64,000 nt of DNA. Origin: Deroplatys truncata (lineage: Eukaryota; Arthropoda; Insecta; Mantodea; Mantidae). The translations under genes and the position numbers were made by a program. Every line of letters begins with the position of its first letter. Within the stretch, counting starts at the first letter, position 1. This document shows, piece by piece, positions 5,217 to 57,105 of this stretch. The DNA lies in the NCBI GenBank assembly GCA_030765065.1, contig CM060978.1:219685498-219749497 (forward strand). Reading direction: 5' to 3'. Below the pieces are notes generated by a model. The model did no database searches. It was not told the DNA's origin and was given only the letters and a program-made list of their open reading frames with translations.

Positions 5217-6977
5217 ATAGGTAACCAGTAGAGATAGTAAACGTACGTGAAAATATAAACTGGTTTTAATAAAGCATTGAAATTATTTCGGGAAACGTGA
5301 GAAAGTGAATATACATTTCAGTCCTTAATTATTGCACATGCCTTTTAACAGAAATTCGCTTATTACTTCAAATCTTGGCCTTGTTGCACCATATACGTAA
5401 TAAAATGTACGCGGAATATCTTTGATCAAGATCTCAGCGTTATGGATTCTCACCCCAGAAGTCCCCGGCTGGGGTAGAGAATTTTTCTTTGTCCAGAAGC
5501 ATTCCCTACCCTCAGAGGAGGCGTAAGTATGGAGGTGAATGCGAGTGTGTTTAATAGCAAAACAGGTTTAAAAAATCTATCCCTAAGCTAACTTAGAGTT
5601 CGAATTCTTTCTGAAGTCAAAGCCCAATACGACTGTAGAGGTTAGGGGAGCTATAGAAATGAAACAAAAATAATTTTTCATTTCGTCTTTTGAAAACGAA
5701 GTTACTTTCCTTCACAGTGTAGTAATATCTTATGAAAAAGACTCTCTTAAACCATCAATAAGAAGAGAGATAGTGAATAATTGCTACTCTACATCAGAAA
5801 AGGCACTTTTTCCAAACAGCGTAGATAGAATATTTAAATGAAATATTTTTCAGTTTTGTGCTCTCAAAGTAAATCAGCTGCACTGAGCTGAAATGATACT
5901 CTGCCGAGAGACTGGGAACCTCCTATGAAGCATGAAATTAAAATTGAAGTTTGATGTCAGACCAGGTCACATAATGAAAACTGAGCGGGCACAAGGGTAG
6001 GAAGTCAGTTTTAGATGGTATCATTATCTTCTTTAAAAACGTAAACTATTGTCGTATATGCTTTATATGGTTGTTTCAACATGCAGTATTGGCTCAACTG
6101 TTCATGGGTGTAGATCTCTTAGGATTTTATGATATGAGCGATAAAGACTAAAGGAGAATTAAGAAACATCGAATAAAAAATTAATGGGCTGTACCAATAA
6201 CAGCAAAAATGCCTTCGTTCGCCGAGTAACCAAATATGCAGCACACGAAAAACCATTTTAGCGGAACAATAATACTAAACCCACGAAACCCGTTTCCGTC
6301 GCTCCTTGTCTATACATCTGTGATAGAGTTGAAACTCTCATCTAGTTTGCGTATTGAAAGCCCTAAAAGCGTCCGGATAAGCATAATGAATGTTGTACTC
6401 TGAACGTAATACTCTCTATGACGTTGCGAGCAGAACGGGTACAATTCAACCTGTCTCGTTCATCCTGTTGCACAGTGCAATATAACTTTGTGTATACTGG
6501 ATTGCAAATGAGTATTAGTAACACATTAACACATTTTGTACATATAAATGTGGAGGTAAAACTAATTTGTGGAGAAAATTTTATAACTGTGAGGACAGCG
6601 GCCAAATACAGCATAATTCCCCTTTTGTAATTATTTTCTCGCCTTATTTAATTGTAATGCCGTCTGTGCTTTATTCCTGTCCTATATTTGAGTTATTTGA
6701 AATGTACATAAATAGCGAAATAGTTTCTTGGTGTACAGCTAGAAAAATATTACCTCATTTATTTGACTGTAAGTGTTACATTTTTCCTTTATTAAACAGT
6801 ACAAAAGCCTGGTTATAGGATTTGAGATATTAATTTATGTTTAATTGGCAATACTATTAAGGAGCTAAAAACCCAACTAATATATTCCCTGTGCTTCCCT
6901 ACTTTTCTCTGTGATACGCGCAAGAAGAATCAGCGGGTACTCGACGCCTCTCAGGAGAAACAAGAGTGCAAAAAAAA
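5217..6977. other. AT-rich interval, nothing recognised
   Basis: No gene, SINE head or terminal repeat could be identified. Short frames at 6363-6818 lack motifs and look fortuitous. Confidence 0.55.
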
Positions 6978-7119
6978 TCTGATGTGTTACACTCACAGGA
7001 CTTTCTCTACTCTTGTACAAACTATTATTACAAACGCTTATTCTCCATCCACTTCATGTTAATCGAGATAAACATTTGCAGACTCTATCTTATTGCTAAT
7101 TTTCTTGTAGATGTAAGGG

Positions 7120-7154
<35 letters not shown>

Positions 7155-7881
7155 CAAGGGCAATATAGAAATACAGTAGCCTTTAAGTGCATACATGTCT
7201 CTTAATAGTTGGTTGCTAGGTGCAGCACCATTCTCTTTGCCACAGATTAATACTCTTTGCATATCCAAGACAAAAAAATGAATAACGAATTCCCATTTGA
7301 GAAAATAAGTATTGAAAAATTCAAGGGAATAACAATCAATATCTCGAAAATGGTTCACTCAACCAAAAAATGTATATGACATAAATTGTGTATTTTAACG
7401 CGATCTACAATTTTGTCTATCTCTTATGGTTTACCAATTTAGCAAAAGTCGTTCACAATGAAGAATACTTTTGAAGACATTCCCAGAAAATTCAAGATAT
7501 ACATTTTATTTGTCATGAAAATATCTTAAACATATGATACTTTAATCAAAATCGTTAGAGCCATTTTTGAGAAAATTAAAATTTTCGAAAAATGTTCCAT
7601 GTAAAGGGTAATCTGGGGTGGGGGATTTTCTTGAAAACCTTCGTGTCGCATCTCTGTAAGATACTGAACATAAATACCAAGTTTGGTGTTTATCCGACTG
7701 TTCGTTTCTGAGTTATGCTGTTCACAGACAGGCACACAGACACACACACGGACATGTTTCCAAAAAAAAAAATTTTTGGATTCAGGGGGTCTTAAAACAT
7801 GTATTTCCGGTGAAATCTCGTTATCGAATTTTTGGGTGGAATACAATACTTCCCCTACTTACTATACGTAGTAGAGAAAGT
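6978..7881 (-). mobile_element. HelA copy (Helentron-like, non-autonomous), minus orientation
   Basis: Full-length copy of 904 bases. Its 3' end reads TCTGATGTGTTACACTCAC on the plus strand and sits after a run of A; the 5' end is at GTAGTAGAGAAAGT before AAAAA. It contains the inverted copy of ACTTTCTCTACT near the 3' end, a CA-rich tract at 7735-7753, and an (AT)n tract at 7122-7150. The AT tract lies where the long copy at 29824-31587 carries its coding segment, so this copy appears to be an internal-deletion derivative. No protein is encoded. Confidence 0.75.
7122..7150. repeat. (AT)n microsatellite inside a HelA copy
   Basis: Perfect AT dinucleotide run at the presumed internal-deletion junction of the surrounding repeat. 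Confidence 0.9.
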
Positions 7882-8200
7882 AAAAAGTCTGGTGACAAAG
7901 CCTCGCTCGATCAAATGAGGCAGCGGAAAAAGTGCGTTCAGTGTGCTCAACTTACCATGGTTAAGGTGGCGAGAAGTACACGGAAGTTTAAGAGTCATCA
8001 TTGTACCATGCAGGAATGCAAAATCGAGGCTAAATGCTGAGTGAGGATGGATTACTCATTATCAGGAATAGGAATTTGTAAGCATTAAAGCCAGGACGAA
8101 TGAAATGCGGCTCAACTGTCACTAGACTATAGGAAGAAAGGTCGGGGATAAAAAACACTCCCAACCTTCGTACTGCCTTCGGCGTTTGCAAATAGCACTC
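7882..8200. other. Interval between HelA and LTR-like repeat
   Basis: Mixed-composition sequence without a recognised gene; a 76-codon frame covering 7810-8040 begins in the HelA end and has no motif. Confidence 0.5.
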
Positions 8201-12305: not shown

Positions 12306-12324
12306 GGACGGTTTTCTAATTTTT
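11544..12324 (-). mobile_element. Old HelA copy, 3' and central part (interrupted)
   Basis: Older HelA subfamily in minus orientation: 3' end at TCTGATGACACATTCACGTG, then TTTCTCTACCCTCTATTTTT, and a CA microsatellite at 12256-12302 near the 5' side. At 12324 the copy is cut by a younger HelA (12325-13176) in the opposite orientation and resumes at 13177 with AATTCAGGGACCTCAAAACG, running to GTAGAAAAAGT at 13284. Confidence 0.72.
12256..12302. repeat. (CA)n microsatellite in HelA core
   Basis: A dinucleotide run of almost 50 bases at the position where every HelA copy carries a CA/TG tract. Confidence 0.92.
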
Positions 12325-13176
12325 ACTTTCTCTACTACGTATAGTAAGTAGGAGAAGTATTGTATTCCACACAAAAATTCTATACCGAGATTTCACCGGA
12401 AATATATGTTTAGAAAACCCCTGAATCCAAAAGAGGCATTTTTGGAAACATATCCGTGGGTGTGTGTGTGTGTGTGTGTGTATGTGTGTGTCAGCAGCAT
12501 ATCTCAAACGAACAGTCCGATAAACACCAAACTTGGTATTTAAGTTCAGTATCTATCAGAAATGCGACACGAAGGTTTTCAAGAAAATTCTCCATTCCCA
12601 GATCATCCTTTACATGGAACATTTTTCGAAAATTATAATTTCCTCAAAAATGGCTCAAACGATTTTGATAAAAATATCATATATTTAAGGTACTTTTATG
12701 ACAAATAAAATGTATATCTCTAATTTTCTGGGAATGTCTCCAGAAGTATTCTTCATGGAGAAACTCTTTTGGATAACTGGTAAACCATAAGAGATAGACA
12801 AAATTTTACTCCACAAAAAATGTAGATCGCGTTAAAATACACAATTTGTCATATACATGTTTTTTGTTGATTGAACCATTTTCGAGATATTGCTTGTTAT
12901 TTCCTTACATTTTCCAATACTTATACTTTTTCTCAAATGAGAATTCGTTATTCATTTTTTTTGTCCTGGTAATGCAAAGAGAATGGAATACTCCACATAG
13001 CAACCAGCTCTTAAAATATTTGACTATCGCTTAAAACCTACCAATTCACCTTGCATCTACAAGAAAATTAGCAATAAGATTAACATCTCGATTAACATGA
13101 AGCATATGGAGAATAAGCGTTTGTAAAAATAGTTTGTACAAGAGTAGAGAAAGTCATGTGAGTGTAACACATCAGA
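12325..13176 (+). mobile_element. Young HelA copy nested in an older HelA
   Basis: Complete 852-base element: starts ACTTTCTCTACTACGTATAG directly after TTTT, has a TG microsatellite at 12459-12490, and ends with the hairpin ATGTG/CACAT and CATCAGA before TTTTTT. Removing it rejoins the two halves of the older copy with only a T run at the joint. This fixes the element ends and shows insertion within T residues without a visible duplication longer than the T run. Confidence 0.8.
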
Positions 13177-13284
13177 TTTTTTAATTCAGGGACCTCAAAA
13201 CGTGTATTTACAGTGAAATCTCGCTAAAGAATTTTTGGGTAGAGTACAACACTTCCCCTACTTACTATACATAGTAGAAAAAGT
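13177..13284 (-). mobile_element. Old HelA copy, 5' end (continuation of 11544-12324)
   Basis: Contains the conserved 5' block in reverse orientation (ACAGTGAAATCTCGCTAAAG, TTTTTGGGTAGAGTACAACA, CTTACTATACATAGTAG). Confidence 0.72.
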
Positions 13285-15967: not shown

Positions 15968-16255
15968 AAAAACAGAAGACTTATGCCCGGCATTTTACGG
16001 CACAGGGGCAAGATTGACCGATCATGGACAAAGAAAACTTTAAGATGAGACATGTGTTTGCAGAATGGCAGTTCATCGTATCAACACATCACACCAAACC
16101 ACGACTGTGAGTGTAAACTATGTATGCGGTCGTATTATGTGATCCCTATCATCTGGAACGCTGTACTAAAAGAATAAGACAATAAGTGACTTTACTAACC
16201 AAAAGAGAAGCGCAGGTGTGTGATTAAACACTGTAATCTCTTTTTGTATATATTT

Positions 16256-17385
16256 ACTTTCTCTACTACGTATAGTAAGTAGGGGAAGTATTGTATTCCA
16301 CCCAAAAATTCCATACCGAGATTTCACCGGAAATACGTTTTGAGGCCCCCTGAATCCAATAAAAAGCATTTTTGAAAACATGTCCGTGTGTGCGTGTGTG
16401 TCTGTGTGTCTGTGAACAGCATAACTCAAAACACATAACTTGGTATTTAGGTTCAGTATCTTCCAGAGATGCGACGCGAAGGTTTTCAAGAAAATCCCCC
16501 ACCCCAAATTACCTTTTACATTTTCTAAATTTTCTCAAAATTTCTCTAACGATTTTGATTAAAATATAATATTTTTATGATATTTTCATTACAAATGAAA
16601 TGTATATCTCGAGTTTTCCAGAAATGTCTCCAAAAGTATTCTTCATTGTGAACGACTTTTGCATAACTGGTAAACCATAAGAGACACACAAAATTTTATT
16701 ACACAAAATATGTATATCGCATAAAAATACACAATTTCTGTGGTATACATTTTGTTGTTGAGTGAACCACTTTCGGGATATTGCTTGTTATTCCCTTAAA
16801 TTTTCGAATACTTATACTTTTTCTCAAATGGGAATTCGTTATGTTTTTGAACTGTAATGAATATTGATGCTTGGAGTTCTGAAGTAAATTATAAAATTCT
16901 TCATTTAGGCAATGATTTGCACTTAAAATTAATTTCAAATTATGATGGTGTTATGTCATATCCGCCTTACTTGTGCGTTCATGAGGTTTGGCTGCAGGAT
17001 ATTGTAATTGATGATGAAAAGTAATCTGCAATGCAGTGACAAATAATTTTGCATTACAAGGGATCATACCGAGGGATTTAGGCAGTGGGTTAAAACATTT
17101 TGCCAGTCCTATCACGACGATGTGTTTACTGCACAATTAAAACCTATCTCTTGTTTTTATTTGTTTTGTTTTTTGTCTTGGTAATGCAAAGAGAATGGAA
17201 TACTCTACATAGCAACCAACTCATAAAACATTTGACTATCGCTTAAGGCCTACCAATTCCCCTTGCACCTACCAGAAAATTAGCAATAAGATTAACATCC
17301 TGATTAACATGAAGCAATTGGAGAATAAGCGTTTGTAAAAATAATTTGTACAAGAGTAGAGAAAGTCATGTGAGTGTAACACAGA
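16256..17385 (+). mobile_element. HelA copy with coding insert (long form)
   Basis: Plus-orientation copy of 1,130 bases. Starts ACTTTCTCTACTACGTATAG after TTT and ends GTGAGTGTAACACAGA before TTTT. Relative to the short copies it has about 320 extra bases (16843-17160) between the TTCGTTAT and TAATGCAAAGAGAATGGAAT blocks. The extra segment is homologous to the coding segment of the long copy at 29824-31587 and lies in the same orientation relative to the element, so it is an original internal part rather than a chance insertion. Confidence 0.75.
16843..17160 (+). pseudogene. Cysteine-protease-like protein fragment in HelA (copy 1)
   Basis: Plus-strand remnant reading NIDAWSSEV, KILHLGNDLHLK, SYPPYLCVHEVWLQDIVIDD, then decaying through stops. 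It aligns block by block with the longer remnant at 30028-30516 on the other strand. The amino-terminal part with the putative catalytic cysteine is missing here. Its sense direction is the same as the 5'-to-3' direction of the repeat, as it is in the other long copy. Confidence 0.6.
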
Positions 17386-17534
17386 TTTTGTTATTTATTA
17401 ACTCATGGTGCGTTGACTGGTCAGATTTTTCTCTTACTTATATGGCTATTTGGCTGCAATAATTGTATTGTTATTATAACTGTAAAACAAATGCTACGCC
17501 AAAAGTAGGGAACTGTATCATAACTTAGTCAAAA

Positions 17535-18085: not shown

Positions 18086-18121
18086 GTTTATCTCAGAATG
18101 ATAGGAAAAAACCTGATTTTT

Positions 18122-18948
18122 ACTTTCTCTACTACGTATAGTAAGTAGGGGAAGTATTGTATTCCACCCAAAAATTCGATACCGAGATTTCACCGGAAAT
18201 ACATGTTTTGAGACCCCCTGAATAAAAAAAATATTTTTGGAAACATGCGTGTCTGTGTCCGTGAACAGCATAACTTGGAAACGAACAGTCGGATAAACAC
18301 CAAACTTGGTATTTAGGTTCAGTGTCTTCCAGAGATACGACACGAAGGTTTTCAAGAAAATCCCCCACCCCAGTTTACCCTTTACATAGAACATTTTTCG
18401 AAAACTTTAATTTTCTAAAAAATGGCTCTAACAATTTTGATTAAAATATCATATATTTAAGATACCTTCATGACAAATAAAAGGATATCTTGAATTTTCT
18501 GGGACTATCTCCAAAAGTATTCTTCATTGTGAACGACTTTTGCGTAACTGGTAAGCCATAAGAGATAGACAAAATTTTAACCCACAAAAAATGCAGAGTG
18601 CGTTAAAATACACAATTTATGTCATATACCTTTTTTGTTGTTGAGTGAAGCATTTTCGAGATATTCCCTTAAATTTTCCAATACTTACACGCTTTCTCAA
18701 ATGGGAGTTCGTTATTCAATTTTTTTGTCCTGCTAATGCAAAGAGAATGGAATGCGCCACATAGCAACCAGCTCTTAAAATGTTTGACTATCGCTTAAAG
18801 TCTATCAATTCTCCTTGAATCTACAAGAAAATAAGCAATAAGATAAACATCTCGATATCTCGATTAACATGAAGCATATGGAGAATAAGCGTTTGTAAAA
18901 ATAGTTTGCACAAGAGTAGAGAAAGTCATGTGAGTGTAACACATCAGA
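18122..18948 (+). mobile_element. HelA copy, complete short form
   Basis: 827 bases, from ACTTTCTCTACTACGTATAG after TTTTT to CACATCAGA before a G and a T run. The terminal hairpin and the inverted ACTTTCTCTACT are intact. Its TG core is short (18242-18260). Confidence 0.78.
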
Positions 18949-19734
18949 GTTTTTTTATTTAACACATATACCTTTCTCTGCCCATTATAAATTTCACATG
19001 TAACTCTTATAAAGCTATACCATGTAAACATAACGTGAATCTTCGTTTTATATTACTTTGATCACAATAAAGGTTTGTCAAGTGACTGTTTCAAGCTAAG
19101 AATCATTGATTTTACTTCCACAGTGTGCACGAAGAGCAACTAATCGTGATAGATTAATTTTTGTATGATAGAGAAAGTAATTAAAAGGTGAAACAAAAAG
19201 AAGCTTTATAAAACATCTGTTTTAAAATATATGAAGCTTAGCTAGTATAAGAAAGATTTGTTAATCACTAAGTGCAACTTTAAAAACTTAACTGCTTACT
19301 GTATCGGAAGCAAAGGATTTCACAACCCAGCATAAAAGCAATAAATTCTGACATCAAATAAGGAAGTAGCTTAAAGAGGAATTTCCATGACACTTACGTA
19401 CATTTATCACCGTTTTTTACCGCACGGTTATTATTTATGAAAGTAATGTAGACACTTTAGATATTCAATGTGAATGTCCTCATTTATTACTGCAAGGTGT
19501 TTCCCAAAACCGATCTATCAGATTGTTGTGCTATTCCGATGATAAATTTATTGCTAATATAAAAATGAAAAGCGGGAACGTGAAAAGCGAAAGTTATTAG
19601 CCCTTTCTCTGCAGAATATTTATATACACCATGTTGCTTAGGTATTATCAGAGAGATGTACAGTCATTACTATGCTCCTCGCTGAATAAGAAAAGCGACA
19701 TTTTCCAAGAATAATGTTAGCACTTAAACAAAAA
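18949..19734. other. AT-rich interval, nothing recognised
   Basis: Unique-looking AT-rich sequence between two HelA copies; no gene supported. Confidence 0.55.
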
Positions 19735-20522
19735 TTTGATGCGTTGCACTCGCCTGACTTTCTCGACTCTTTTACAAATGCTTATTCTCCATCTAGTTCA
19801 TGTTTTAATAGATAAACATTTGCATAAATCATCTTATTGCTAATCATCTTGAAGGTGCAAGGGGAATATGGTAGTATTTAAGCGATAGTCAAATCTCTTA
19901 AGACCTGGTTGCTATGTGGAGCATTTCATTCTCTTTGTATGTCCAGGACATAAAAAACGAATAACGAATTCCCATTTGAGAATGTAAAATATTGAAAAAT
20001 TCAAACCAATTACAACGAATATCTTGGAAATGGTTCACTCGACAAAAAAATGTATATCAAATACACAAAGTTTATGTTATAACGAGATCAAGATTTTTGT
20101 GTAGTAAAACTTTGTCTATCTCTTATGGTTTGCCAGTTTTGCAAAATGCATTCAGAATGAAGAGGAGTTTTGCAGACATTCCCAGAAATTGAAGAAGCGT
20201 ATGCATTTTATTTACCATAAAATATCTTAAATATGTGGTATTGAGCAAATCAAAATTTAAAGAATGCTCCACGTAAAGGGTAGTTTGAGGTGGGGGATTT
20301 CTTTGAAAATCTTCGCGTCGCATCCTTGGAATGCTAAGTGTGTATTTATCAGACTTTTCTTTTTAGGTCATGCTGTTCACAGACACACACGCATGGATAT
20401 TTTTCTAAAAACTCTTTTTTGGATTCAGGGGGCCTCAAAACATGTATTTCTGGTGAATCTCGGTATCGAATTTTTGGGTGAATACAATACTTTCCCTACC
20501 TACTATACGTAGTAGAGAAAGT
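19735..20522 (-). mobile_element. HelA copy, minus orientation
   Basis: 788 bases from TTTGATGCGTTGCACTCG (diverged 3' end) to GTAGTAGAGAAAGT before AAAAA. It includes the 3'-subterminal CTGACTTTCTCGACTC and a short CA core at 20384-20392. Confidence 0.72.
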
Positions 20523-20570
20523 AAAAATCATCTGAGGTACTACATAGCTTGCCAATCCTTTTTCTTTCCC

Positions 20571-21462: not shown

Positions 21463-22794
21463 CGAGGTGTGATCGAAAAGTTTCCGAAATGACGTCATAA
21501 ATACTACACAACAGTTTGTTTTATCTAATCTGCACTGTCACCCTCGAAGTAGTCTCCTTGGGAGTTGATGCACTTGTCCCAACGCTTCTGCCACTGCTGG
21601 AAGCACCTCTGGAAGACCTCTTCTTTCAACATGTTCAGAGCCTTCTGCGATTCGCGATGGATGACATCAATGTCCTCAAAACGGCGTCCTCGGAGCCGCA
21701 TTTTAAGTCGCGGGAAAAGAAAAACGTCCGTTGGTGCCAAATCTGGAGAATAGGCGGAATGGGGAGCAGTATTCATCCTATTTTTATCCAAAAATTGGCG
21801 AAGAGAAAGGGCTTTGTGCGCGGGCGCATTGTCATGATGCAGGAACCAGTCACCACTCCTCTATTTCTCCGGCCGTTTGCGTCGCACGTTCTTCCTTAAT
21901 CTTTGCAGCACTTGTTTGTAGAACACTTGATTCACTGTTTGACCCTGTGGCACAAATTCCTTATGTACAATGCCTTTAATGTCAAAAAACACAATCATCA
22001 TTGACTTCGCTTTGGATCAAACTTGTCTGGCCTTTTTCGGGCGTGGAGATGAAGGATTCTTCCATTGTGAAGATTGTTGCTTCGTTTCTGAATCGTACCC
22101 ATAAATCCATGTTTCATCACCAGTAATAATTTTCTCCATAAACTGTGGGTCATTTTGTGGCTGTTCTTTAAAATCTGTGCAGGCAATCACAAGGCTTTCC
22201 TTTTTGGTCATTTGAAAGCGGGCGCGGCACGAACTTGGCGGCAATTCTTCTCATGTCCAAATTGTCTTCAAAATGCTTTGAACACTTCCAAAGGAGAGTC
22301 CTAATGAGTCAGAAAGTTCTTATTGTAATGTGCCTATCATTTAAGACCATTTCCCTCACCTGATTGATATTTTCATCAGTTTTGCTGAAACAGGGTCGCC
22401 CCGAACGATCTACACCTTTAACTGAGCCACACCACTTTTAAATTTCGAAAACAACTCAAATGCCTGTGTTTTGCCCATAACGTCCTCCCCATAAACTGTT
22501 ATTAACATTTTATAGCCTTCTGTTGCAGTTTTACCGAGTTTAAAGCAAACTATGATGTTCGTTCTTTGTTCTTCGTAATCTGACATTTTTGCTACGCGGA
22601 AAAATCGCAGCACATGCAAAACAAGTGTTCACTTCAGAGCGTCTACCTTGTCACTGCATGGTCACAGGAAGTCACGTGACCTCTTTATTTTAATCGTGAA
22701 GGAACGCTGCATGTACAGTCTGGGTAAGAATTAAAGAAATCTCAGTGTCAGCATTGTTGTGAAGCCATTTTGGAAACTTTTTAATCACACCTCG
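21463..22794 (-). mobile_element. mariner transposon with TIRs and TA duplication
   Basis: A 1,332-base element of standard mariner size. The left end CGAGGTGTGATCGAAAAGTT and right end AACTTTTTAATCACACCTCG are near-perfect inverted repeats of about 23 bases, with TA on both outer sides (21461-21462 and 22795-22796). The transposase runs right to left and fills most of the interior. Confidence 0.93.
21525..22586 (-). pseudogene. mariner transposase (broken)
   Basis: Transposase of the IS630-Tc1-mariner group, which cuts and pastes the element at TA. Starting at ATG 22584-22586: MSDYEEQRTNIIVCFKLGKT is the HTH start, followed by GKTQAFELFSKFKSG (mariner WF.RF.-like helix region) and SLVIACTDFKEQPQNDPQFM leading into the GDETWIYGYD block with the first catalytic aspartate. 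The C-terminal part has AYSPDLAPTDVFLFPRLK with the third aspartate and ends ..GDYFEGDSAD. These pieces lie in different frames with stops between them (around 22400, 22240 and 21800-22000), so the copy is dead. The D34D spacing is inferred from the family, since the part holding the second aspartate is frame-shifted. Confidence 0.88.
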
Positions 22795-29757: not shown

Positions 29758-29823
29758 ATTTTACGATTGAATGTGTAGCTGAATGAAACGGAAGAGCTGA
29801 ACGCTCACATTAGTAAACAAATA

Positions 29824-31587
29824 TCTGATGTGTTACACTCACATGACTTTCTCTCCTCCTGTACAAACTATTTTTACAAACGCTTATTCTCCATATGCTT
29901 CATGTTAATCGAGATGTTAATCTTATTGCTAATTTTCTTGTAGACGCAAGGGGAATTGGTAGGCTTTAAGCAATAGTCAAATATTTTAAGAGCTGGTTGC
30001 TATGTGGAGTATTCCATTCTCTTTGCATTACCAAGACAAAAAAATAAGAGCTATAGATTTTAACTGTGCAGTAAACACGCCGTAGTGATAGCACTGGAAA
30101 AGTGTTTTTAACACACTGCCTAAATCTCTCGGTATGATCCCTTGTAATGCAAAATTATTTGTCACTGCATTGCAGACTACTTTTACATCATCAATTACAA
30201 TATTCTGTAGCCAAACCTCATGAGCGCACAAGTAAGGCGGATATGGTATAACACCATTATAATTTTAAACTGATTTTAAGTGCAAACCGTTGCCTAAATG
30301 AAGAATTTTATCAATTACTTCAGAACTCCAAGCATCAATATTTATTACAGTTGAAAACCATAACGCCATCACCAAGTTGCTTGTGCACTGTGTGTTTTTA
30401 ACCTCACCAAATATGTCGTTATTTTGGCTCAAAGTGCCAGTAATCACTTTGTCTGCTTTCACGGAAAATAACTTCTTAACATTAAAATTAAAACTGATTC
30501 GTTTCTTACTAGGCACTTTGAAAAGTCTTAAAACGTGAACCAGTAAACAAAGAACAGAAATTACCTGAAAATGGTACTATAACAAATAATATATGAATGA
30601 ATAAAATGAAGCAACCCTTAAACCGTGGAAACAAAAAATATAAACTAAAATAGGAACATTTACAATGCTACTATAACTAACAATAAGATACCACTTAATA
30701 AAATGAAACGATCTTACGAAATTGGTTCAAATCAGCATTTATTTGAAGCAAAAGCCGATAAAAGATTCATGGCACTTCGTTTATTTCTCAGTATAAAAAA
30801 TATTTGACTATTGCTTAAGGCCTACTATGTTCCCCTGGTTTTGTATTTGCAAGGGCAATACAGAAATACAATAGCCTTTAAGCATATACATATTTCTTAA
30901 TAGCTGGTTGCTAGGTGCAGCACCATTCTCTTTGCTACAGATTATCACTCTTTGCATATCCAAGACAAAAAATGAATAACGAATTCCTATTTGAGTAAAA
31001 TTATAAGTATTGGAAAATGTAAGGGAATAATAAGCAATATCTCGAAAATGGTTCACTCAACAAAAAACTGTATATGACATAAATTGTGTATTTTAAGGCG
31101 ATCTACATTTTTGTGTAGTAAAAGTTTGTCTATCTCTTATGGTTTACCAGTTATGCAAAAGTCATTCATAATGAAGAATACTTTTGGAGACATTCCAAGA
31201 AAATTCGAGATATCATTTCATTTGTCATGAAAATACTTAAAACATATGATATTTTAATCAAAATCGTTAGAGGCATTTTTGAGAAAATTTAAATTTTCGA
31301 AAAATGTTCCATGTAAAGGGTAATCTTGTGTGGGGGGATGTTTTTTTAAAACCTTCTGTCGCATCTCTGGAAGATACTGAACCTAAATACCAAGTTTGGT
31401 GTTTATCCAACTGTTCGTTTATGAGTTATGCTGTTCACAGACACACACACACACACGGACATGTTTCCAAAAATACTTTTTTGGGGTTCAGAAGGCCTCA
31501 ATACATGTATTTCCTATGAAATCTCGGTATCGAATTTTTGGGTGGAATACAATACTTCCCCTACTTACTATACGTAGTAGAGAAAGT
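29824..31587 (-). mobile_element. Long HelA copy with coding segment
   Basis: 1,764 bases in minus orientation: 3' end TCTGATGTGTTACACTCACA at 29824, 5' end GTAGTAGAGAAAGT at 31587 before AAAAA. Both terminal structures match the short copies, so the whole interval is one element. Between them lies about 740 bases (30048-30790) absent from the short copies, which holds a reading frame in the sense of the element. A CA tract is at 31439-31455. Two versions of the GCTGGTTGCTA block (near 29992 and 30902) flank the coding part, so short copies could arise by recombination across this duplication. Confidence 0.78.
30028..30516 (-). pseudogene. Cysteine-protease-like protein carried by HelA (copy 2)
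   Basis: A minus-strand frame of 163 codons, open except for one stop at codon 84. No ATG is visible at its start (the first codon drawn is GTG), so the true beginning is upstream or lost. Key stretch: GTLSQNNDIFGEVKNTQCTS with C44, then NLVMALWFST, W63, IDKILHLGNGLH (D69, G75) and YPPYLCAHEVWLQNIVIDD. The pattern G..Q....F....QC..N..MA...., W, .D.IL..G..L recalls the cysteine-peptidase-like proteins (papain/OTU-fold, C76-like) that accompany some eukaryotic transposons. That assignment is from memory of the pattern and is tentative. A second copy is at 16843-17160. Function in the element is unknown. Confidence 0.55.
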
Positions 31588-32467
31588 AAAAATGAAGGTA
31601 ACTACCATGTCGATCTCATTCATTAGTGCACATATCTGTACCATTGCTCTTGTAGCTTTTTTATTTTTTGTAATCGTGGAAATGCGTATGCATTTTTGTT
31701 CTGTTTACGTATATGTAATACGCGTGATAGCAAGAAAGGAAAGCTGTTTTCAATATCAAGCATTACAAGAAATATTTATACAAGGTTGCTAATGTAAACT
31801 GAAATTCACCAACACGCAAGCTGCAAATCTCTCGTGATCCACGAAGGAAATTCAAATCTCTCACCGTGGATCATAGATTAACATTTGATTCAGTACGGTT
31901 ATTTTAGAAATTTGTCATGAAAGTTTGACAACACGATGATATTGAAAATGGATCGAAATATATTCTAATAACTATGTAAATCTGGTAAGTAATCACGAAA
32001 CTAGTGGTAACATTAATGATTAGCAGAGAAAAATATATTTGGATGCCGCAATGGCCAACTTTTCTCTCAAAAATAATAACAAAAAACAAACGAAACAAAA
32101 AAGAAACGCCAAGCTTGGAAAATAATTCGATGATGTTGGTGATAACGGTGGTGTGTGTTACCCTGGCATCGCTCCAAACTCGAAATTTGCAGATAAACAT
32201 ACTGGCACGTCTTCAGACCTTGTATGACATGTTTATTGATTAGTAGAATTGATTGTTTTTCTACATTTCCGTTTTCTGATTTATTTTCGGTACTTTTATC
32301 GGTAATCTAATGACGGTTTTTATTGTATCTGTTTCATAATTTTAATGAATATCAAATCTTTTTCTAACAAAAGTGCTAACTTTAACTTCAATAATTTCTC
32401 ACTCCTCAGCGATACTAGAGGCGCTTCGCGATTATAATACATGCTGTAAAATATCTCTGTTATAATC
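31588..32467. other. Interval, nothing recognised
   Basis: Overlapping frames on both strands at 31538-32243 have no motif. No gene supported. Confidence 0.5.
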
Positions 32468-33218: not shown

Positions 33219-36200
33219 CATGGTTAGGATTTTTAGGTGCGCAACTTTTTACTTAGGGTAAGTTAAAACTGTGCGGAAAGATATCACAGTGTGAAATTTT
33301 GTTTCCAGTTGCGAAAAGTGGCATTTTTTCTAGCACATTTTTCTCTTTTTTGGGACATTTACCCCTTTTTGGCACCTTTATCCCAAGTTCTCCCAACCAT
33401 GCCCATAATCCTCTTTTTTTCCCCCTTTTTTCTTTTAAGTTTCATTTCAATTTATTCTTTAACTTTCAATTAACGTCTCCTCAGCTTGCTGTGTACGTGC
33501 GAATAGTAAGCCTTCCTCTTTCAGTAAAAGCCGCGCGGGAATCGACAGCACACCCGCAACAATGGAAAATAATTGTGTGTTCGACGAAAAACTCTTTCTC
33601 TCGCTTTACCGCTATAAAGTAGCCCGCAATAATGCAATTGACAATGAGTGATTCTATCCCACCAGAATCAGCAGCTGCTGTTCGTGAATGTGGGTTTGTT
33701 ATTGTGAGAGACGTCATCTGTGCGTGGAGGCGAAGGCTGGTCACGCAGGGACGGCAGTAACCTCACCCGCGCAGTTCCGAGAATTATTAAGACTGGGTTA
33801 TGCTCGAAACTACAAGAAATCGCTGAGACTGAAGTTCCAGCATGAATGAGAACATTCTGGTAATTGTGGCGGTGTTATAAGAGAATGTGGATAACGAATG
33901 GGCGCAAGAGTGAGTTGTGAGACAGTCGCATTGTGTTAGCAAATGAATTAGCGTTAGCTCTCCAAACGAGTGTACTAGTACTAGATTTTACCATACCAAA
34001 GATGTCCAGTACTCGATTTAATGTTCTGGCTGAGGAATTCATAAACACTGATGGAACTGTTATGCGATGTACTATTTGTGATTCAGGAATTTTATTAAAT
34101 GAAAAACACCGGCGAGATCGCATTAAACAACACATTTCCAACTCTTAAGCGCAAATGAACAAGCCTCTTCAAGCAAACAAATCACGGCAACCTCTATTAC
34201 GAAATGCGTTTCAACAGAGTTCTTCAAAAAGCCAAAATTTGAAGGAATTAAACATTGATTTGTATGCAGCTCTTACACAAGCAGGAATTCCACTCAATAA
34301 GGTGAACCATCCAGCCTTCAAGGGATTTCTTGAAAAATACACAAAGATATTAATGCCCGATGACAGTACTTCAAGAAAAAAACTACACGGAGCCTGTTTA
34401 CCAAGAAACCATAGAAAGAATCAAGGGAAAAGTGTCTGATTGCGATGTGGGAATCATTGTGGATGAAACCATAAACTCAATGGAACGATACGTTTTGAAC
34501 ATTTTAGTTTTTCCCTTAGCATGGGAGAAAGATAAGCGCATGTTGTTAAAAATGTACGAGCTGCAGAAAGCCAATGCCAGTACAATACTGCAATCCATTA
34601 TGGACTTCTGCCAAAAACTCTGGCCTACTGGTATCGAGTTTGAAAAGCTTCTTCTTGTGGTTACGGACCAGGCTCCATACATGGTTTCAGCTTTTAACCA
34701 ATTAAGACATTTATTTCCTAACTTGAAGCATGTGACATGCTTGGCTCAAGCCCTTCACAGGGTTTGTGAATCCATAAGGAACGAATACGACATTTCAAAT
34801 CAATTCATCTCTGCCCTGAAGAAGATTCTACTGAAAGCTCCGAGCCCTGTTGTATACTACAGGGAAATCACTGGCCTGCCCCTTCCAAATTTCTCGGTCA
34901 TTACCTGCTGGGGATCTTGGATTGAGTGTGCTGCTATGTTGTGTGAGAATTTTGACAAAATTAAAGAGTTTGTGCTTTCTTTGGATCCATCCGACGCAGG
35001 TGCAATTTCCAAGGCAAAGCAACTGCTGTTATCGGTGAAAATACATAATTTGCAGACAGGACTACATTCTGTCCATACTTATAAGTACCTGCCTGCAGCT
35101 ATTAAACGAATGGAAGAACAAGGTCTGGAAAAGGAAAAACATTGAGATATTTTTACTTCCAGGAGGGAGCAGTTAGATGGCTTTGCCAAAGACAAACTTT
35201 AATCTAGTCTTCAGAAGAATCCAGAATTGAGGAATTTGCCACATCTGTAGAGTTGCCATTCCGAGTGAATGCAAGGTTTGCCCCCACTGGTTTCTGTGGA
35301 TGTTGAAAGAAGCTTTAGCATCTACAAAGACATTTTATCTCCTAATAGAAATAGACATACTTTTAAAAATGTGGAGATGCTTAATGTGAAGTATAATAGC
35401 GTCATGTTTTTTTCCTTTTTTTGACGAGTGATAATATGATATACTTGTTTGTAGTTCAATAAATTAGAATAGAGGGAAGAGAAATCGTTGAATTAGTTAA
35501 GGGAATGTACAACTGAAATTAACCCAATATCTCAACAACAACAACAAATTCCAAAAAATTCTCCATTGTTTGTAGTTTTAGAATCCACTTTTATTTTTGA
35601 CCTAGCGAACGCTTCAGGATCGCTACGAGACTTTTTAAATACCCTTGCGCATTTTGTTGCTAGCTGTTTATATTTTTAAAACTTCATTTTAAGGCGTTTC
35701 TTATTTTCAGCATTTCTGTATATTCAAAATGTTTCACACGATGTAGTTTTTATCAATCCATATTGACATTTTCTATGCTTATTTCAAAAACCCAAATAAA
35801 TAAAACTGTCATAATTTTTTTGTGTAATGAATACTTTTTGCGCTACTAATTTTTGAAGATAATGTATAAAAAACTAAAAAATGCAAATACAAAATTGCAA
35901 AACTTTTTTCTCTTAAACTAAGAATGGTAGAAAAAAGTTATATGACAGATTTGTAGTTCCTTGACATAGAAGCAACATAAGATTTTTTTTGAAGAATGTA
36001 TCATGTGTTGCATTTTGAATATACCCATAACTTTATATTTTGAAAATTAATAACGTGAAAACTAATTAAGATTTTGGATTGAATTCACAAAACAATTATA
36101 TCATGTGGTTGCAATTTCAGCCCAATTGAAGGGATAGTTTAGAAAATAGCAATTTCCGTTGTACATCCCCTTAAATAAACCAGCGCCTTATTGTCCCTTT

Positions 36201-37341: not shown

Positions 37342-38577
37342 CGCTATGTATCCGGACAACCCCACAAACATACGTTTTTCATCTTAGGTGCATTGTGCTG
37401 CAACCTACTGCCTGGTACTCATTATCCGCGACCGCAGTAGTCATTAGACATCGTGAAACAGCAGAATGGGACGCTCCGTGGAACTCACGGACTTCGAACG
37501 TGGTCAGGTGTTTGGGTGTCACTTGTCTCAGAAGTCTGTACGCGAGATTTCCACACTCCTAAACATCCCTAGGTCCACTGTTTCTCATGTGATAGTGAAG
37601 TGTAAACGTGAAGAGACATGTATAGCACAAAAGCGTACCGGCCGATCTCGTCTGTTGACTGACACGGACCGCCGACATTTGAAGAGGGTCGTAAAGAGTA
37701 ATAGGCAGACATCTATCCAGACCATCACACAGGAATTCCAAACTACATCAGGATCCACTCCAAGTAATATGACATTTGGGCGTGAGGTGAGAAACCTTGG
37801 ATTCCATGGTCGAGCGGCTGCTCATAAGCCACACATCACGCAGGAAAATGCCAAACGACGCCTCGCTTGGTGTAAGGAGCGTCAACATTACACGATTGAA
37901 CAGTGGCAAAGCGTTGTGTGAGTGACGAATCACGGTACATAATGTGGCGATCCGATGGCAGGGTGTGGGTATGGCGAATGCCCGGTGAACGTCATCTGCC
38001 AGTGTGTGTAGTGCCAACAGTAAAATTCGGAGGTGATGGTGGTATAGTGTGGTCGTGTTTTTTCTGGAGGGGTCCTGCACCCCTTGTTGTTTTACGTGGC
38101 ACGATCACAGCGCAGACCTACATTGATATTTTAAGCACCTTCTTGCTTCCCACTGTTGATGAGCAATTCGGGGATGGCGATTACATCTTTCAACACGATC
38201 GAGCAGCTGTTCATACTGCACGGGCTGTGGCGGAGTGGTTACACGACAATAACTTCCCTGTAATGGACTGGCCTCACAGAGTCCTGACTTGAATCCTATA
38301 GAACACCTTTGGGATGTTTTGGAACGCCGACTTCGTGCCAGGCCTCACCGACCTACATGGATACCTCTCCTCAGTTTCGCACTCAGTGAAGAATGGGCTG
38401 CCATTCCCCAAGAAACCTTCCAGCACCTGATTGAAAGAATACCTGCGAGAGTGAACGCTGTCATCAAGGCTAAGGGTGGGCCAACATCATAATGACTTCC
38501 AGCATTACCAATGGAGGGCGCCACGAACTTGTACGTCATTTTCAGCCAGGTGTCCGGACACTTTTGATCACGTAGTG
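37342..38577 (+). mobile_element. Tc1-like transposon (copy 1) in HelA
   Basis: 1,236 bases bounded by TA at 37340-37341 and 38578-38579. The right end, read inverted, is CACTACGTGATCAAAAGTGT then CCGGACACC. The left end reads CGCTATGTATCCGGACA, i.e. the same TIR with a 10-base internal deletion of TGATCAAAAG. The interruption of a known HelA phrase gives an independent check of the boundaries. Confidence 0.92.
37466..38492 (+). pseudogene. Tc1 transposase, DD34E type (two single-base deletions)
   Basis: Begins at ATG 37466 with MGRSVELTDFERGQVFGCHL, a Tc1 paired-like DNA-binding domain: KSVREISTLLNIPRSTV is the first recognition helix, RTGRSRLLTDTDRRHLKR the GRPR-like hinge and second subdomain, and TPSNMTFGREVRNLGFHGR leads to the catalytic domain. 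SDESRY carries the first aspartate, IFQHDRAAVHTARAV the second, and LNPIEHLWDVLERR the glutamate. Against copy 2, one base is missing near 37920 (which truncates the first frame at 151 codons) and one near 38279, so the sequence is in three frames. Otherwise it is nearly complete and relatively young. Confidence 0.92.
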
Positions 38578-44874: not shown

Positions 44875-46106
44875 GTGATCAAAAGTACCCGGACACCTCC
44901 ACAAACAAACGTTTTTCATCTTAGGAGCATTCTGCTGCCACCTATTGCCTGGTACTCATTATCCCCGACCTCAATACTCATTAGACATTGTGAAACAGCA
45001 GAATGGGACGCTCCATGGAACTCACGGACTTCGAACTTGGTCAGGAGATTGGGTGTCGCTTCTGTTCGAAGTCTGTACGCGAGATTTCCACACTCCTAAA
45101 CATACCACTGTTTCTGATGTTAGTGAAGTGGAAACGTGAAGGGACATGTACAGCACAAAAGCGTACAGGCCGACCTCATCTGTTCACTGACAGAGACCGC
45201 TGACATTTGAAAAGAGTCGTAAAGAGTAATAGGCAGACATCTATCCAGACCATCACACAGGAATTCCAAACTGCATCAGGATCCACTCCAAGTACTACGA
45301 CAGTTAGGCGTGAGATGAGAAACCTTGGATTCCATGGTCGAGCAGCTGCTCATAAACCACACATCACGCAGGAAAATGTCAAACGACGCCTCGCTTGGTG
45401 TAAGGAGCGTCAACATTACACGATTAAACAGTAGCAAAACGTTGTGTGAAGTGACGAATCACGGTACACAATGTGGCGATCCGATAGCAGGGTGTGGGAA
45501 TGGCGAATGCACGGTGAACGTCATCTGCCAGCGTGTGTAGTGCCAACAGTGAAATTCGGAGGTGGTGGTGTTATGGTGTGGTCGTGTTTTTCCTGGAGGA
45601 GGCTTGCACCCCTTGTTTTTTTGCGTGGTACGATCACAGCGCAGACCTACATTGATATTTTAAGCACCTTCTTGCTTCCCACTGTTGAAGAGCAATTCGG
45701 GGATGGCGATTGCATCTTTCAACACGATCAAACACCTGTTCATTCTGCACGGACTGTCGTGAAGTGGTTACACGACAATAACATCCCTGTAATGGACTGG
45801 CCTGCACAGAGTCCTGACTTGAATCCTATAGAACACCTTTGGGATGTTTTGGAACGCGGACTTCGTGCCAGGCCTCACCGACCTACATAGATACCTCTCC
45901 TCAGTTCCGCCCTCCGAGAAGAATGGGCTGACATTCCCCAACAAACCTTCCAGCACCTGATTGAAAGTATGCCTGCGAGAGTGAACGCTGTCATCAAGGC
46001 TAAGGGTGGGCCAACATCATATTTACTTCCAGCATTACTGATGGAGGGCGCCAAGAACTTGTACGTCATTTTCAGCCAGTGTCCGGATACTTTTGATCAC
46101 GTAGTG
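44875..46106 (+). mobile_element. Tc1-like transposon (copy 2) in a SINE
   Basis: Same element as 37342-38577. Left end begins at TGATCAAAAGTACCCGGACA, so the outermost bases of the TIR are lost or mutated. The right end is complete (CTTTTGATCACGTAGTG). No TA duplication is readable, which suggests a damaged left border. Confidence 0.85.
45003..46018 (+). pseudogene. Tc1 transposase copy 2 (broken)
   Basis: ATG at 45003 gives MGRSMELTDFELGQEIGCRF, with the same domain order as copy 1. Lesions differ: six or so bases are missing around 45105-45122 in the first recognition helix region, TGA replaces an arginine codon at 45201, TAG replaces tryptophan at 45432, and TAG occurs near 45888. The catalytic blocks IFQHDQTPVHSART and WPAQSPDLNPIEHLWDVLER are well preserved in one frame (45471-45890). 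Because copies 1 and 2 carry different lesions, each was probably inserted when its source was intact. Confidence 0.9.
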
Positions 46107-46988: not shown

Positions 46989-47629
46989 CTTCATATAAAT
47001 TCCTCTACCCAATCTTGTACAAAGTATTCTTACTTTAGACTATTCTTCTATTTACTACTTGTTAATCGTTATGCATTTACACATTTCGGTGTAGAAGGAG
47101 AATAGAGTAGGCTATAGATATTGCACAGAGTGGATCGCTATATTATGAGTTTGAAATTCCACTCTTTGACATGGCCACGAGAAAGAACTAATAAACTTAC
47201 CGCTTGAAAAAAGCATAAGTATTTGTAAATTCAAACCAGAACAAACAATATCTCGGAAATGGTTATATAAGAAGTGTTGACATAAATTGTGTGCTTTATC
47301 GAGTTATACATTTTTTTGGTGTGTGTGTATAGTAAGAGTTTGTCTAGCTCTACGGTTAAATATGACTGCACAGACTATTACCAGCGAATTCCAGACATAT
47401 TTCATTCCTCATAAACATGTGGTATTTCAATAAAAAACTTTGGAGCCAGTTTTGAGAAAATAAATAACAAAAAATGTTCCATGTTAAGGGTATCTTGTTT
47501 GGGGGATTCAGTTAAAAATATTTGTCACATTTTTGGAAGATTTTAACTTAAATATTAAGTTTGTTGATTATCCGACTTTTCGTCTTTTATTACGCTATTC
47601 ACAGATATACGCGCACACATAGACTTTTT
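46989..47629 (-). mobile_element. Old HelA copy, 5' end lost at a young HelA
   Basis: Diverged minus copy from about TTCCTCTACCCAATCTTGTA to GCGCACACATAGACTTTT. It stops just past the CA core, where the young copy 47630-48438 begins. Unlike the case at 12325, the missing 5' end is not found beyond the young element. Confidence 0.65.
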
Positions 47630-48438
47630 ACTTTCTCTGCTACGTATAGTAAGTAGGGGAAGTATTGTATTCCACCCAAAAATTCGATACCGAGGTTTCA
47701 CCGGAAGTATATGTTTTGAGAACCCCTGAATCCAAAAAAAAGCATTTTTGGAAACATGCCTGTGTGTGTCTGTGTACGTGTGTCTATCTCTGAACAGCAT
47801 AACTCAGAAACGAACAGTCGGATAAACACCAAACTTGGTATTTAGGTACAGTATCTTCCAGATTACCCTTTACAGGGAACATTTTTCGAAAATTTTCTCA
47901 AAAATGGCTCTAACGATTTTGATTAAAATATCATATATTTAAGATACTTTCATGACAAATGAAATTTATATCTTGAATTTTCTGGGAATGTCTCCAAACG
48001 TATTCATCATTGTGAACGAGTTTTGCATAACTGGTAAACCATAAGAGATAGACAAAATTTTACAACACAGAAAATGTAGATCGCGTTAAAATACACAATT
48101 TATGTCATAGACATTTTTTGTTGTTGAGTGAACCATTTTCGAGATATTGCTTGTTATTCCCTTAAGTTTTCCAATAATTATACTTTCTCTCAAATGGGAA
48201 TTCGTTATTCATTTTATGTTCTGGACATAATGGAGAATGGAATACTCCACATAGCAACCAGCTCTTAAACTATTTGACTATCGCTTATAGCCTACCTATT
48301 CCCCTTGCATCTACAAGAAAATTAGCAATAAGATTAACATCTCGATATCTTTATTAACATGAAGCATATGGAGAATAAGCGTTTGTAAAAATAGTTTCTA
48401 CAAGAGTAGAGAAAGTCATATGAGTGTAACACATCAGA
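47630..48438 (+). mobile_element. Young HelA copy, complete
   Basis: 809 bases, from ACTTTCTCTGCTACGTATAG after TTTT to CACATCAGA before C and a T run. Terminal hairpin and inverted terminal sequence intact. It sits directly after the CA core of an older HelA. Confidence 0.78.
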
Positions 48439-48534
48439 CTTTTTTTAAATATTGTCGAATGTTTAACATTGAGTACCCGTAACCAGAAATAGGAAGTTCT
48501 ACAGAGACATGGGAATCATCTCGTAATAACCTAT

Positions 48535-53766: not shown

Positions 53767-54612
53767 AGCTTTCCATACTCCGTATAGTAAGTACGGGAAG
53801 TATTTACATTCCAACCTAAAATTCAATACCGAGATTTTACAGGAAATACATGTTTTGAGGTGCACTGATGTATATAAAGCAATCTTGGAAACATGTCCAT
53901 GTGTGTGTGTCTGTGAAGAGCATAACTCAGAAACGAACAGTCGAATAAACACCAAACTTGGTATTTAAGTTCAGTATCTTCCAGAGATGCGACACGAAGG
54001 TTTTCAAGAAAATCCCCCAACCTCAGATTACCCTTTACATGGAACATTTTTCAAACATTTTAATTTTCTCAAAAATGGCTCTAACGATTTTGATTAAAAT
54101 ATCATATATTTAAGATACTTTCATGACAAATAAAATGTATATCTGAATTTTCTGGGAATGTCTCCAAAAGTATTCTTCATTGTGAACGACTTTTGCATCA
54201 CTGGTAAACCATAAGAGAGAGAGAGAGAACATTTTACTACACAAAAATGTAGATCGCGCTAAAATACACAATTTATGTCGTATGCATAATTTTTGTTGAG
54301 TGAACCATTTTCGAGATATTCCTTGTTATTTATTTGAATTTTCCAATAATTATACTTTTTCTCAAATGTGAATTCGTTATTCATTTTTTTGTCCTGGTAA
54401 TGCAAAGAGAATGGAATACTCCACATAGCAACCAGCTCTTAAAATATTTGAGTATCGCTTAAAGCCTAGCAATTCCCCTTGCATCTACAAGAAAATTAGC
54501 AATAAGATAAACATCTCGATATCTCGATTAACATGAAGCATATGGAGAATAAGCGTTTGTAAAAATAGTTTGTACAAGAGTAGAGAAAGTCATGTGAGTG
54601 TAACACATCAGA
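53767..54612 (+). mobile_element. HelA copy with diverged 5' terminus
   Basis: 846 bases, from CTTTCCATACTCCGTATAGT to CACATCAGA before a T run. The 5' 12-mer is altered but the rest is close to the young copies. TG core at 53898-53910 and a GA tract near 54216. Confidence 0.75.
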
Positions 54613-57105
54613 TTTTTTTGTATAGCGTTACCTCTCGTTGCCAGGGAATCTGTCCTCAGTTACATTAAATGGCCTGAGTTTGTGTCAAATGTATGGCAAT
54701 GTAACAATATTTTCTTCCATTCCACAAGCATCAACTGAAATACAGGCGGTAGTTGATAACCGGTTTTATCACTCCTGGACCAACGTAACTTTAAATCCAG
54801 ATTATTGTTACACCTAAGAGGAAAAGATGCGCCGACAGAAATTAAAACGTTTCCATGTAGTTAATAAGATACTACCTCCAAATACTATCAATGGCAGTTT
54901 TTCACTCTGAATTAGAAAATATTTTACTGTTTTAATTTTATACTTCTGGGAACTAATCCCTAATTATTACAGCACGCTACAATAAACAATTGCGAAATAT
55001 GGAGATAATTTTACACTAGTATTAAGGGTTTAAACCACAGGAATAGAATTGCATTTGGACGGCGTGGCAGATAGATTGATCTTTGAACCTAAAGGCGCAT
55101 TCCAGGAATAATACATAAAATTCAATCTATGGGCCATTCCGTGAAGGAAAGAGCTGAAACATTCTCAAATTTTGGGTTCTGCTTATTAATTCTGTAGACT
55201 TGTTTCAAACCGTGAAGCATTTTAATAATGAACTACTGCGGCCACGAGAGTTAACGGTATGAACTATTATGAACCGACCTAACAGGCAAAACATAAATGC
55301 CCTATGCGCAAACATGATTTCTCTAAAAGCACTTTCGGTGGTGTAACACAGAATTATAGTGATCTCATTTGAGTTACTTAGCCAGCAGTGTATATTCAAG
55401 AACAGCGAACAAAGATGGTTTGAAAATCTCTTCCATTTGACACTCTGCAGGGTAATAGATTAACGAAACGCATTTACCTCATTGAATAGAGGCATTTGAG
55501 CGCTACAGGTGAGAAAGAACACAAAGGAAAACACATTTTTTGCTTATGTCTGATGAACAAAGTTGGATAAATCGTGAAAGATGTTTGTGCTGCATTATGC
55601 AGTCGTATTTTCTGTATTTTAAGGGAACGTTTACTTAGCTTATGTGTATGACATTCTCCCTATGTTTATTATATTCGTAATGTTGTACTTTAACATATGT
55701 TTTTATCATGTAATATATAACTATATTCGAAATTTAAAAGGTACATTGCGATCAATTTGATCCACACGAATAGCGAAGTTGGATCTCTAGATATGTAACC
55801 TAAAGTACATTCATGTATTTAATTCCACCAATGTAAAGAGATTTTTTGGAATCATTCAGTACAGAGATGGGGATAGCATTATATATCTCAGGTTAAATAT
55901 GTTTTATAACTTATTAAAACTATGCACCTACTATCGTTTGTTTACAACACTTGGAAATTGTATTGTTTATATACTGTCACACAAGTTGGACGTAATCAGA
56001 TGCAGTAAAGGTGTTTTTGCTAAGAGCGTGAAACGTGACCCATGTTCTCGTGTGGTTTAAGGTGCTTGAGAGGACATCTATGGGTAAAAACCTAAATGCT
56101 ATTTATAGCGACCTGGCACGGCTAAACGTAAAACAGTCAGCTCGCTAGTCAGACTACTGTTCTATGGTAAAGCAATTTGCTGTCGCATTCACCTTTGATC
56201 TTCCAACCGCTGTCTACTGACGTTCTAGGTTAATGGCTTAGACCAATAAACCAACACAGTTTGTGCGGTGTCATACCTTTTGTGCAATTTCTGCATTTGG
56301 TCTCATTTATCGCCGATATAGCTATGCAAATTAATGTTGTGAAATTTCAACATTCATTTGAATTATTATGCTAGTTTTATTTTCCCTGTCTATGGTGGTA
56401 AAGAAAATGCTATATTTCACTAGTTATAAATTAGTAATTATTTTCTTTTGCTAAATGTGTATTTTTCTATTTGCTTCAGCAGTGTGTTAATACAAACTGT
56501 AAGGTTTACCTTTGTACAATACAATATTACATTTACAATTATTATTATAAAGGTATAACTTCGTAATAATTATGCTGTTATGTTTATTAATTTTATCCTT
56601 CTTCGACAGCGTATATCTACTTTGATTTGTAAGAAGCGGAAAAAATACATGAACGTTTTCTTGGACTTGTATGTGGTTACTCAAAAGTTATTTTGTGCAA
56701 ACGATAAGATATATGGTTGCATTTAAATGCGCACTGAAGGCCCGGCTTTGAAGGCTCAAAAAACAAGCACAACAAACGCTTCACTTTTCGAATATCACCT
56801 CACCTTCATGGAAATAGCTTTCTTACTTCAGAGACAGTATGTAACATGTTCAGAAATCTGTCAAGTGGAAACCATATAATAACATGCACCATATGCTGTG
56901 CCATGCGATAGCTCTGCTCTCAGCGGCGTGTCCATCAACATCGTCGGATACAACCGAACACTCTAGGGGCGGAAAAAAAAAACACTGGCACAATTTTTGG
57001 AATCAAAGGGGCATGTGTATGATTTCTAAATTGTGTTTGTGATCATGTAAATTATTCTGTCCTCCCTTAAAGCGAATATTATTTCTGTAGTGTAAAGCTT
57101 GTTTC
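54613..57105. other. Unrecognised interval
   Basis: The longest stretch without an identified repeat. Frames at 55205-55399 and 56487-56684 have no motifs. It may be old unique sequence or an intron. Confidence 0.5.

Follow-up and report, generated by a model that had tools for sequence, protein, structure and literature searches.

What is the origin of the protein-coding remnant carried by a long copy of the repeat HelA, and is this copy the parent of its family or a product of it? The question is raised by the minus strand of the window (the whole stretch of 64,000 nucleotides of Deroplatys truncata contig CM060978.1 analysed here). The long copy, HelA-long, is very probably an internally deleted non-autonomous Helentron (HINE), and its autonomous relatives of about 10 kb encode a protein that runs from a VTD (viral tegument-like deubiquitinase domain, Pfam Herpes_teg_N) to an endonuclease.

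Extent and ends of HelA-long

HelA-long was searched for in a genome of 4.29 Gb and 818 contigs, where 40 places (39 besides the window) were scored among 14228 first-look candidates that included short relatives. Of these 39 places 27 were fetched, the 12 left out being mostly shorter matches, which gives 28 aligned rows with the window copy. The ends were placed by comparison with the 27 fetched copies and with a second copy in the window, and by the T-rich flanks. The whole non-autonomous Helentron occupies 29819..31592 on the minus strand, with its 5' end at 31592 and its 3' end at 29819. The 3' end can be read in all 28 aligned rows and the 5' end in 22. Apart from scattered changes, the copies open with a T run that leads into ACTTTCTCTACTACGTATAGTA and close with AGTAGAGAAAGTCATGTGAGTGTAACACATCAGA and a second T run, and T runs border both edges in most rows. 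The ends are indeed those of HelA, as had been annotated, although the true ends lie a few bases outside the 29824..31587 given initially.

The 12-bp subterminal inverted repeat ACTTTCTCTACT can be read directly at 31576..31587 (minus strand), where it is followed by the palindrome TACTACGTATAGTA; it is kept across copies, with single changes in some. The same repeat stands near the 3' end (29846..29857, minus strand), with one mismatch in the window copy, the usual form there being AGTAGAGAAAGT. A short palindrome, GTGTAACAC, lies at 29830..29838 (minus strand). Both 3' features are read from the sequence and the copy alignment. HelA-long thereby shows what defines a HINE: subterminal inverted repeats of 12-15 bp, a 3' palindrome, a T-rich insertion site, and ends shared with an autonomous Helentron (the 5' end is common to 7/7 autonomous loci and the 3' terminal sequence is nearly the same). 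An internal GT microsatellite is present in the HelA-long copies. Short HelA copies measure roughly 800-900 bp. The extra DNA of the long copy, initially put at about 740 bases, is real but amounts to about 900 bp over the short copies, of which about 758 bp is shared with the start of the autonomous coding region.

Short copies consisting of a 5' module and a 3' module without the VTD were found by alignment within the window. One lies at 12319..13181 on the plus strand, and similar ones lie near 18116-18956, 47625-48455 and 53769-54617 on the plus strand and near 6970-7886 and 19725-20528 on the minus strand. Other mobile elements in the window were identified by eye. A 555-aa reverse-transcriptase-like frame of a non-LTR element is located at 106-1773 (plus strand), and a fragment of a related element near the other window end (62082-62567, minus strand). 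Tc1/mariner-like transposase frames or fragments are found at 37457-38292 and 45450-45890 (plus strand) and at 21525-21860 (minus strand). A 263-aa open frame at 34354-35145 (plus strand) resembles part of a hAT-type transposase or hAT-derived gene. Scanning the window for Rfam families and tRNAs returned no matches. Elsewhere in the genome, COX1-like mitochondrial inserts are numerous, and some are clustered on the largest contig seen (C16 of G000, in the 638 and 672 Mb regions and others). One of these COX1 inserts (L059) contains no stop under the invertebrate mitochondrial code and has 9 AGA and 12 TGA codons, as expected of an invertebrate host.

The VTD fragment

The initial annotation had described a 163-codon minus-strand frame at 30028-30516 with one in-frame stop, oriented in the sense of the element and enclosed by the HelA ends. 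Both the frame and its placement are found in this form, and frame reading shows the stop to be a TAA at 30265..30267 (minus strand). A truncated VTD (Herpes_teg_N) of 155 codons could be delimited at 30052..30516 (minus strand) by profile and copy alignment. It starts with GTG at a site where most other copies have ATG. The presumed catalytic Cys codon, in NTQCTSN, was counted from the frame to 30385..30387 (minus strand); its role is assigned via the alignment of the autonomous VTD to 6ppb. The frame terminates with ...AQLKSIALIFLSW-stop, and the truncation precedes the catalytic Asp-x-His motif. Because the fragment ends before Asp-x-His, the Cys/His dyad that had been envisaged cannot form in it.

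The pattern Q....F....QC..N..MA with a later W and D.IL..G had also been reported as conserved in a second copy. That copy (about 16250..17414, plus strand; alignment and frame reading) holds less of the VTD segment than HelA-long does. The W and D.IL..G part is present in it, whereas the Gln/Cys part is missing: it can be aligned to the VTD part of HelA-long only as far as window position 30365, and the Gln codon (30424-30426) and the Cys codon lie beyond. Other genomic copies, outside the window, retain the Cys part of the motif.

The profile search that had been proposed for the translated frame names Herpes_teg_N, but below threshold from the window piece: the first piece of the frame matches it with E 0.025 and 14.7 bits (cut-off 25). 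The same piece gives an unrelated SSrecog match of similar score (E 0.047), the second piece yields only a sub-threshold DUF6498 match, and, searched against the PDB, the window piece by itself returned only a chance hit. The Pfam and PDB matches of the window fragment alone would not settle the family. The 155 codons nevertheless align without a frameshift to an open domain of the autonomous elements, so the fragment is not a product of chance. The earlier assignment to a cysteine-peptidase-like protein of papain or OTU fold therefore stands for its first part, the protein being of the cysteine-peptidase type and a VTD. Published VTD structures have a papain-like fold. The OTU fold was rejected, as no OTU family appears among the Pfam matches of the two window pieces (to E 10) or of three pieces of the autonomous frames (to E 0.1).

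Autonomous relatives

The whole genome was searched with Herpes_teg_N up to E 10, and 150 of 218 candidates were scored. At least 148 matches were obtained in frames of 157 to 2543 aa, with at least 57 rows over the cut-off, at least 48 of which span the profile from position 3/4 to 163/164. At least ten weak matches fall inside HelA-long copies. In at least 17 places, a single uninterrupted frame of 2182-2543 aa is listed for both Herpes_teg_N and Helitron_like_N. The autonomous form of HelA had been predicted to encode the peptidase-like protein next to its replication protein, and the two are found in the same frame at these places. Extension from other genomic copies, suggested as a way to recover a full element, led to elements of about 10 kb with HelA ends, and the segment recurs in other HelA-ended copies (the 28 long copies and the autonomous loci). 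Because the autonomous elements carry HelA's ends, HelA belongs to a Helentron family.

The domain order in one autonomous frame is VTD, 21-aa repeats, DUF6570, HUH Rep, PIF1 helicase and AP-type endonuclease. Frames from two loci contain DUF6570, Helitron_like_N and PIF1 in this order with Herpes_teg_N before them (complete in one; the other query began inside the VTD). The Rep and the helicase are joined in one protein at both loci, with Helitron_like_N at E 1e-27 and PIF1 at E 3e-27 or better. The C-terminus of one frame matches Exo_endo_phos_2 with E 5e-6 and 26.8 bits, slightly below the Pfam cut-off of 27.4. The autonomous form thus appears to carry a C-terminally fused AP-type endonuclease, as judged by E-value and motifs and not by the curated cut-off. 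The motifs HEH, GVGKST, GDFN and SDH are readable in the autonomous frame; we take the first two as Rep/helicase marks and the last two as endonuclease marks.

The VTD of an intact autonomous copy scores 42.9 bits against Herpes_teg_N, over the cut-off, and possesses the catalytic Gln, Cys and Asp-x-His (here Asp-Pro-His) residues. It matches two PDB sequences at E 10 or less. The first is 6ppb, a herpesvirus large tegument protein (E 0.0033), in which Gln, Cys and Asp-Pro-His are aligned; the second is 8adb (E 0.017), aligned over the Asp-Pro-His region. The structure of a zebrafish Helentron VTD, 8ADD, is not among the matches in this range, so it is the family profile and the motifs that tie HelA's VTD to those published from Helentrons.

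The VTD and the Rep are separated by 63-bp/21-aa repeats that vary in number. Frames of at least 200 aa in the autonomous element spans comprise the large one and others that overlap its repeat region. None of these unspliced frames was recognised as the RPA frame present in some Helentrons. The frames scanned in the autonomous loci contain a single VTD each and no OTU. Frames of about 255 aa had hinted at a separate VTD-only class, which was discarded: in the one inspected (L017) the sequence runs on into the repeat region, just as it does in autonomous copies. Likewise, L058, taken for a possibly diverged family, belongs to the same family and has a frameshift. Directly upstream of the main 5' end, six of the seven autonomous loci (L044-L057) carry at least one further HelA 5' module of about 650 bp, arranged head-to-tail. 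Over 9.5 kb, an autonomous locus on one contig shares 99.6% identity with another on a second contig. Together with the 17 long open frames, this pair points to recent activity of the autonomous family.

Deletion origin of HelA-long

When aligned to the autonomous elements, HelA-long falls into two blocks with the same 5' end at 7/7 loci (nt 142/146-942 and 938-1695; the first block is split at locus C8). The 5' internal junction lies at 30796..30800 (minus strand), where 884-1064 bp are missing relative to the seven loci. The 3' internal junction, at 30041..30047 (minus strand), joins the VTD fragment to a 226-bp 3' end module, and compared with the four loci possessing this module HelA-long lacks about 7.6-7.7 kb. 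The deletions remove the Rep/helicase and cut the VTD just before the catalytic Asp-x-His. The autonomous VTD continues through YWLFDPHSCNAKG, which is absent from HelA-long, the second junction falling before it.

The junction blocks were compared in every row, and both junctions are common to all 28 long copies, with a small gap at the 5' junction in L043. A single founder deletion product has therefore been amplified. The autonomous element has its own 3' end, the terminal sequence of which is nearly the same as that of HelA. In four of the seven loci (L046/L047, L048/L049, L054/L055 and L056/L057), an extra 226-bp HelA 3' module is found behind it. Since HelA-long uses that module, it probably derives from an autonomous copy that carries the module in this appended position. 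The three other loci need not be regarded as lacking the HelA 3' module; they finish at the element's own 3' end.

Decay of the fragment and alternative explanations

The changes relative to the majority sequence were counted over the 155 codons of the 28 HelA-long copies. They are distributed 121/137/132 over the codon positions, with a dN/dS-like ratio of 1.12, and 24 of them make stops. The window copy differs by 4.5% from the majority (range 1.7-5.6%) and is among the more decayed. The frame drifts neutrally after insertion, and this decay rules against HelA-long as a working VTD-only element.

One could still imagine HelA-long as semi-autonomous, with a truncated VTD that is made and useful, for example as a non-catalytic ubiquitin-binding decoy. 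The frame is open in the majority sequence of the 28 copies, and a truncated protein could thus have been produced by the founder. Five of the 28 copies stay open, and insect VTD proteins without active-site residues exist according to the accessible part of PMC9741609. The even spread of the changes over the codon positions, the ratio and the stops nonetheless make this explanation very unlikely. These counts bear on neutrality after insertion, with which a role in the founder is still compatible. The VTD fragment of the window does nothing as a protein and is a leftover of the deletion.

The same stretch is open in all seven autonomous copies, but these were picked for long frames. The same count over their VTD gives a ratio of 0.97 on 38 changes in seven copies, without a purifying signal, so the rates do not support constraint on the parent's VTD. 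In pairwise comparisons the ratio ranges from 0 to 1.28 in the VTD, with two pairs undefined, and from 0.15 to 0.96 on the Rep side.

Helitrons are able to capture genes, and the VTD segment could in principle be a host gene fragment taken up by a Helentron. VTD genes outside transposons do exist in insects, as the available text of PMC9741609 reports. However, the segment is the N-terminus of the autonomous Helentrons' own protein at seven loci; because it is already present there, no capture is needed for HelA-long, and this origin is extremely improbable. Finally, there is next to no chance that HelA-long is the ancestral parent of the family, as first thought possible: it exceeds the short copies in length and coding-derived DNA, but it lacks Rep, helicase and endonuclease, open-frame elements of some 10 kb exist that share its 5' end and have a nearly identical 3' end, and both internal junctions are deletions relative to these, which makes it a deletion derivative instead.

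Mosaic autonomous copies

Four of the seven autonomous copies, across two lineages, were compared in bins of 500 bp, the alignment within the repeats being unreliable. C3, C5 and C10 differ from C13 by 0-2.2% per bin from about nt 4000 to the end and by 2.6-12.7% before it, VTD included. The bin wholly inside the VTD shows the lowest divergence of the 5' half. The boundary between the similar and the differing halves, at about nt 4000, is the coding minisatellite of 21-aa repeats.

Fixed differences between the lineages affect 15 of 219 VTD codons and 12 of 1680 Rep-side codons. An arms race, in which the VTD protein would evolve faster than the Rep, was nevertheless rejected in favour of mosaicism, because the synonymous/nonsynonymous contrast among the variable codons does not reach significance (Fisher p 0.16) and divergence is higher throughout the 5' half, non-coding DNA included. 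The contrast between the halves is more simply explained by recombination in the repeat region than by selection. Tentatively, the VTD half might be an exchangeable module, with the 21-aa repeats as a recombination hinge for swaps of the VTD end.

Proposed mechanism and comparison with known systems

By analogy with known Helentrons, the autonomous Rep, helicase and endonuclease would recognise the subterminal repeats and the 3' palindrome and, acting in trans, would copy HelA-long into T-rich sites through rolling-circle replication. The parent's VTD is predicted to remove ubiquitin and may perhaps shield the transposition proteins from the proteasome, as suggested in the accessible part of PMC9741609.

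The deletion origin links a repeat that is common in the window to an autonomous source in the same genome. With at least 17 long open VTD-Helentron frames (seven compared), this one genome is well suited to asking how a deubiquitinase benefits a transposon. A further lesson is that non-autonomous copies can disseminate a piece of a catalytic domain as nothing more than a deletion leftover, which calls for caution when weak domain matches in repeats are read.

Both VTD-Helentrons and deletion derivatives of Helentrons are already published, as the accessible parts of two papers tell. Erven et al. 2022 (PMC9741609) describe VTDs inside Helentrons, with activity and structure for the zebrafish ones, and VTD Helitrons in insects; this bears out the earlier remark that such a class is known to accompany Helentrons. 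Thomas et al. 2014 (PMC4067079) describe HINE/DINE-1 elements as non-autonomous Helentrons and deletion derivatives of a Helentron. No paper on HelA's own Helentron family was found in host-blind searches, with subscription journals mostly outside their reach. Literature searches combining Herpes_teg_N with transposon, or Helitron with peptidase C76, returned no papers, whereas Helitron with deubiquitinase and tegument did.

The autonomous VTD resembles the N-terminal deubiquitinase of the herpesvirus large tegument protein (6ppb_n), with residues 40-182 aligned and Gln, Cys and Asp-Pro-His matched. Over the Asp-Pro-His stretch it also resembles 8adb, which is the Waddlia VTD (Wc-VTD1) according to the available text of PMC9741609. 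Unlike in these proteins, there is no capsid context, the overall similarity is weak and the window copy has no Asp-x-His.

As in the VTD Helentrons covered by the accessible text of PMC9741609, the autonomous HelA has its VTD in a large Rep/helicase/endonuclease frame, and the catalytic residues are kept, as in the presumed autonomous copies there. Unlike in those elements, a region of 21-aa repeats splits the VTD from the Rep, the scanned HelA frames contain no OTU and only one VTD, and the derivative HelA-long keeps only the VTD part without Asp-x-His.

The termini of canonical Helitrons are, by contrast, TC and CTRR, according to the part of PMC4067079 at hand. HelA-long shares with the HINE/DINE-1 elements described there the 12-bp subterminal inverted repeats, the internal microsatellite, the 3' palindrome and the T-rich flanks. 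In contrast to the mite HINE families without coding capacity in the same text, it keeps a recognisable VTD remnant.
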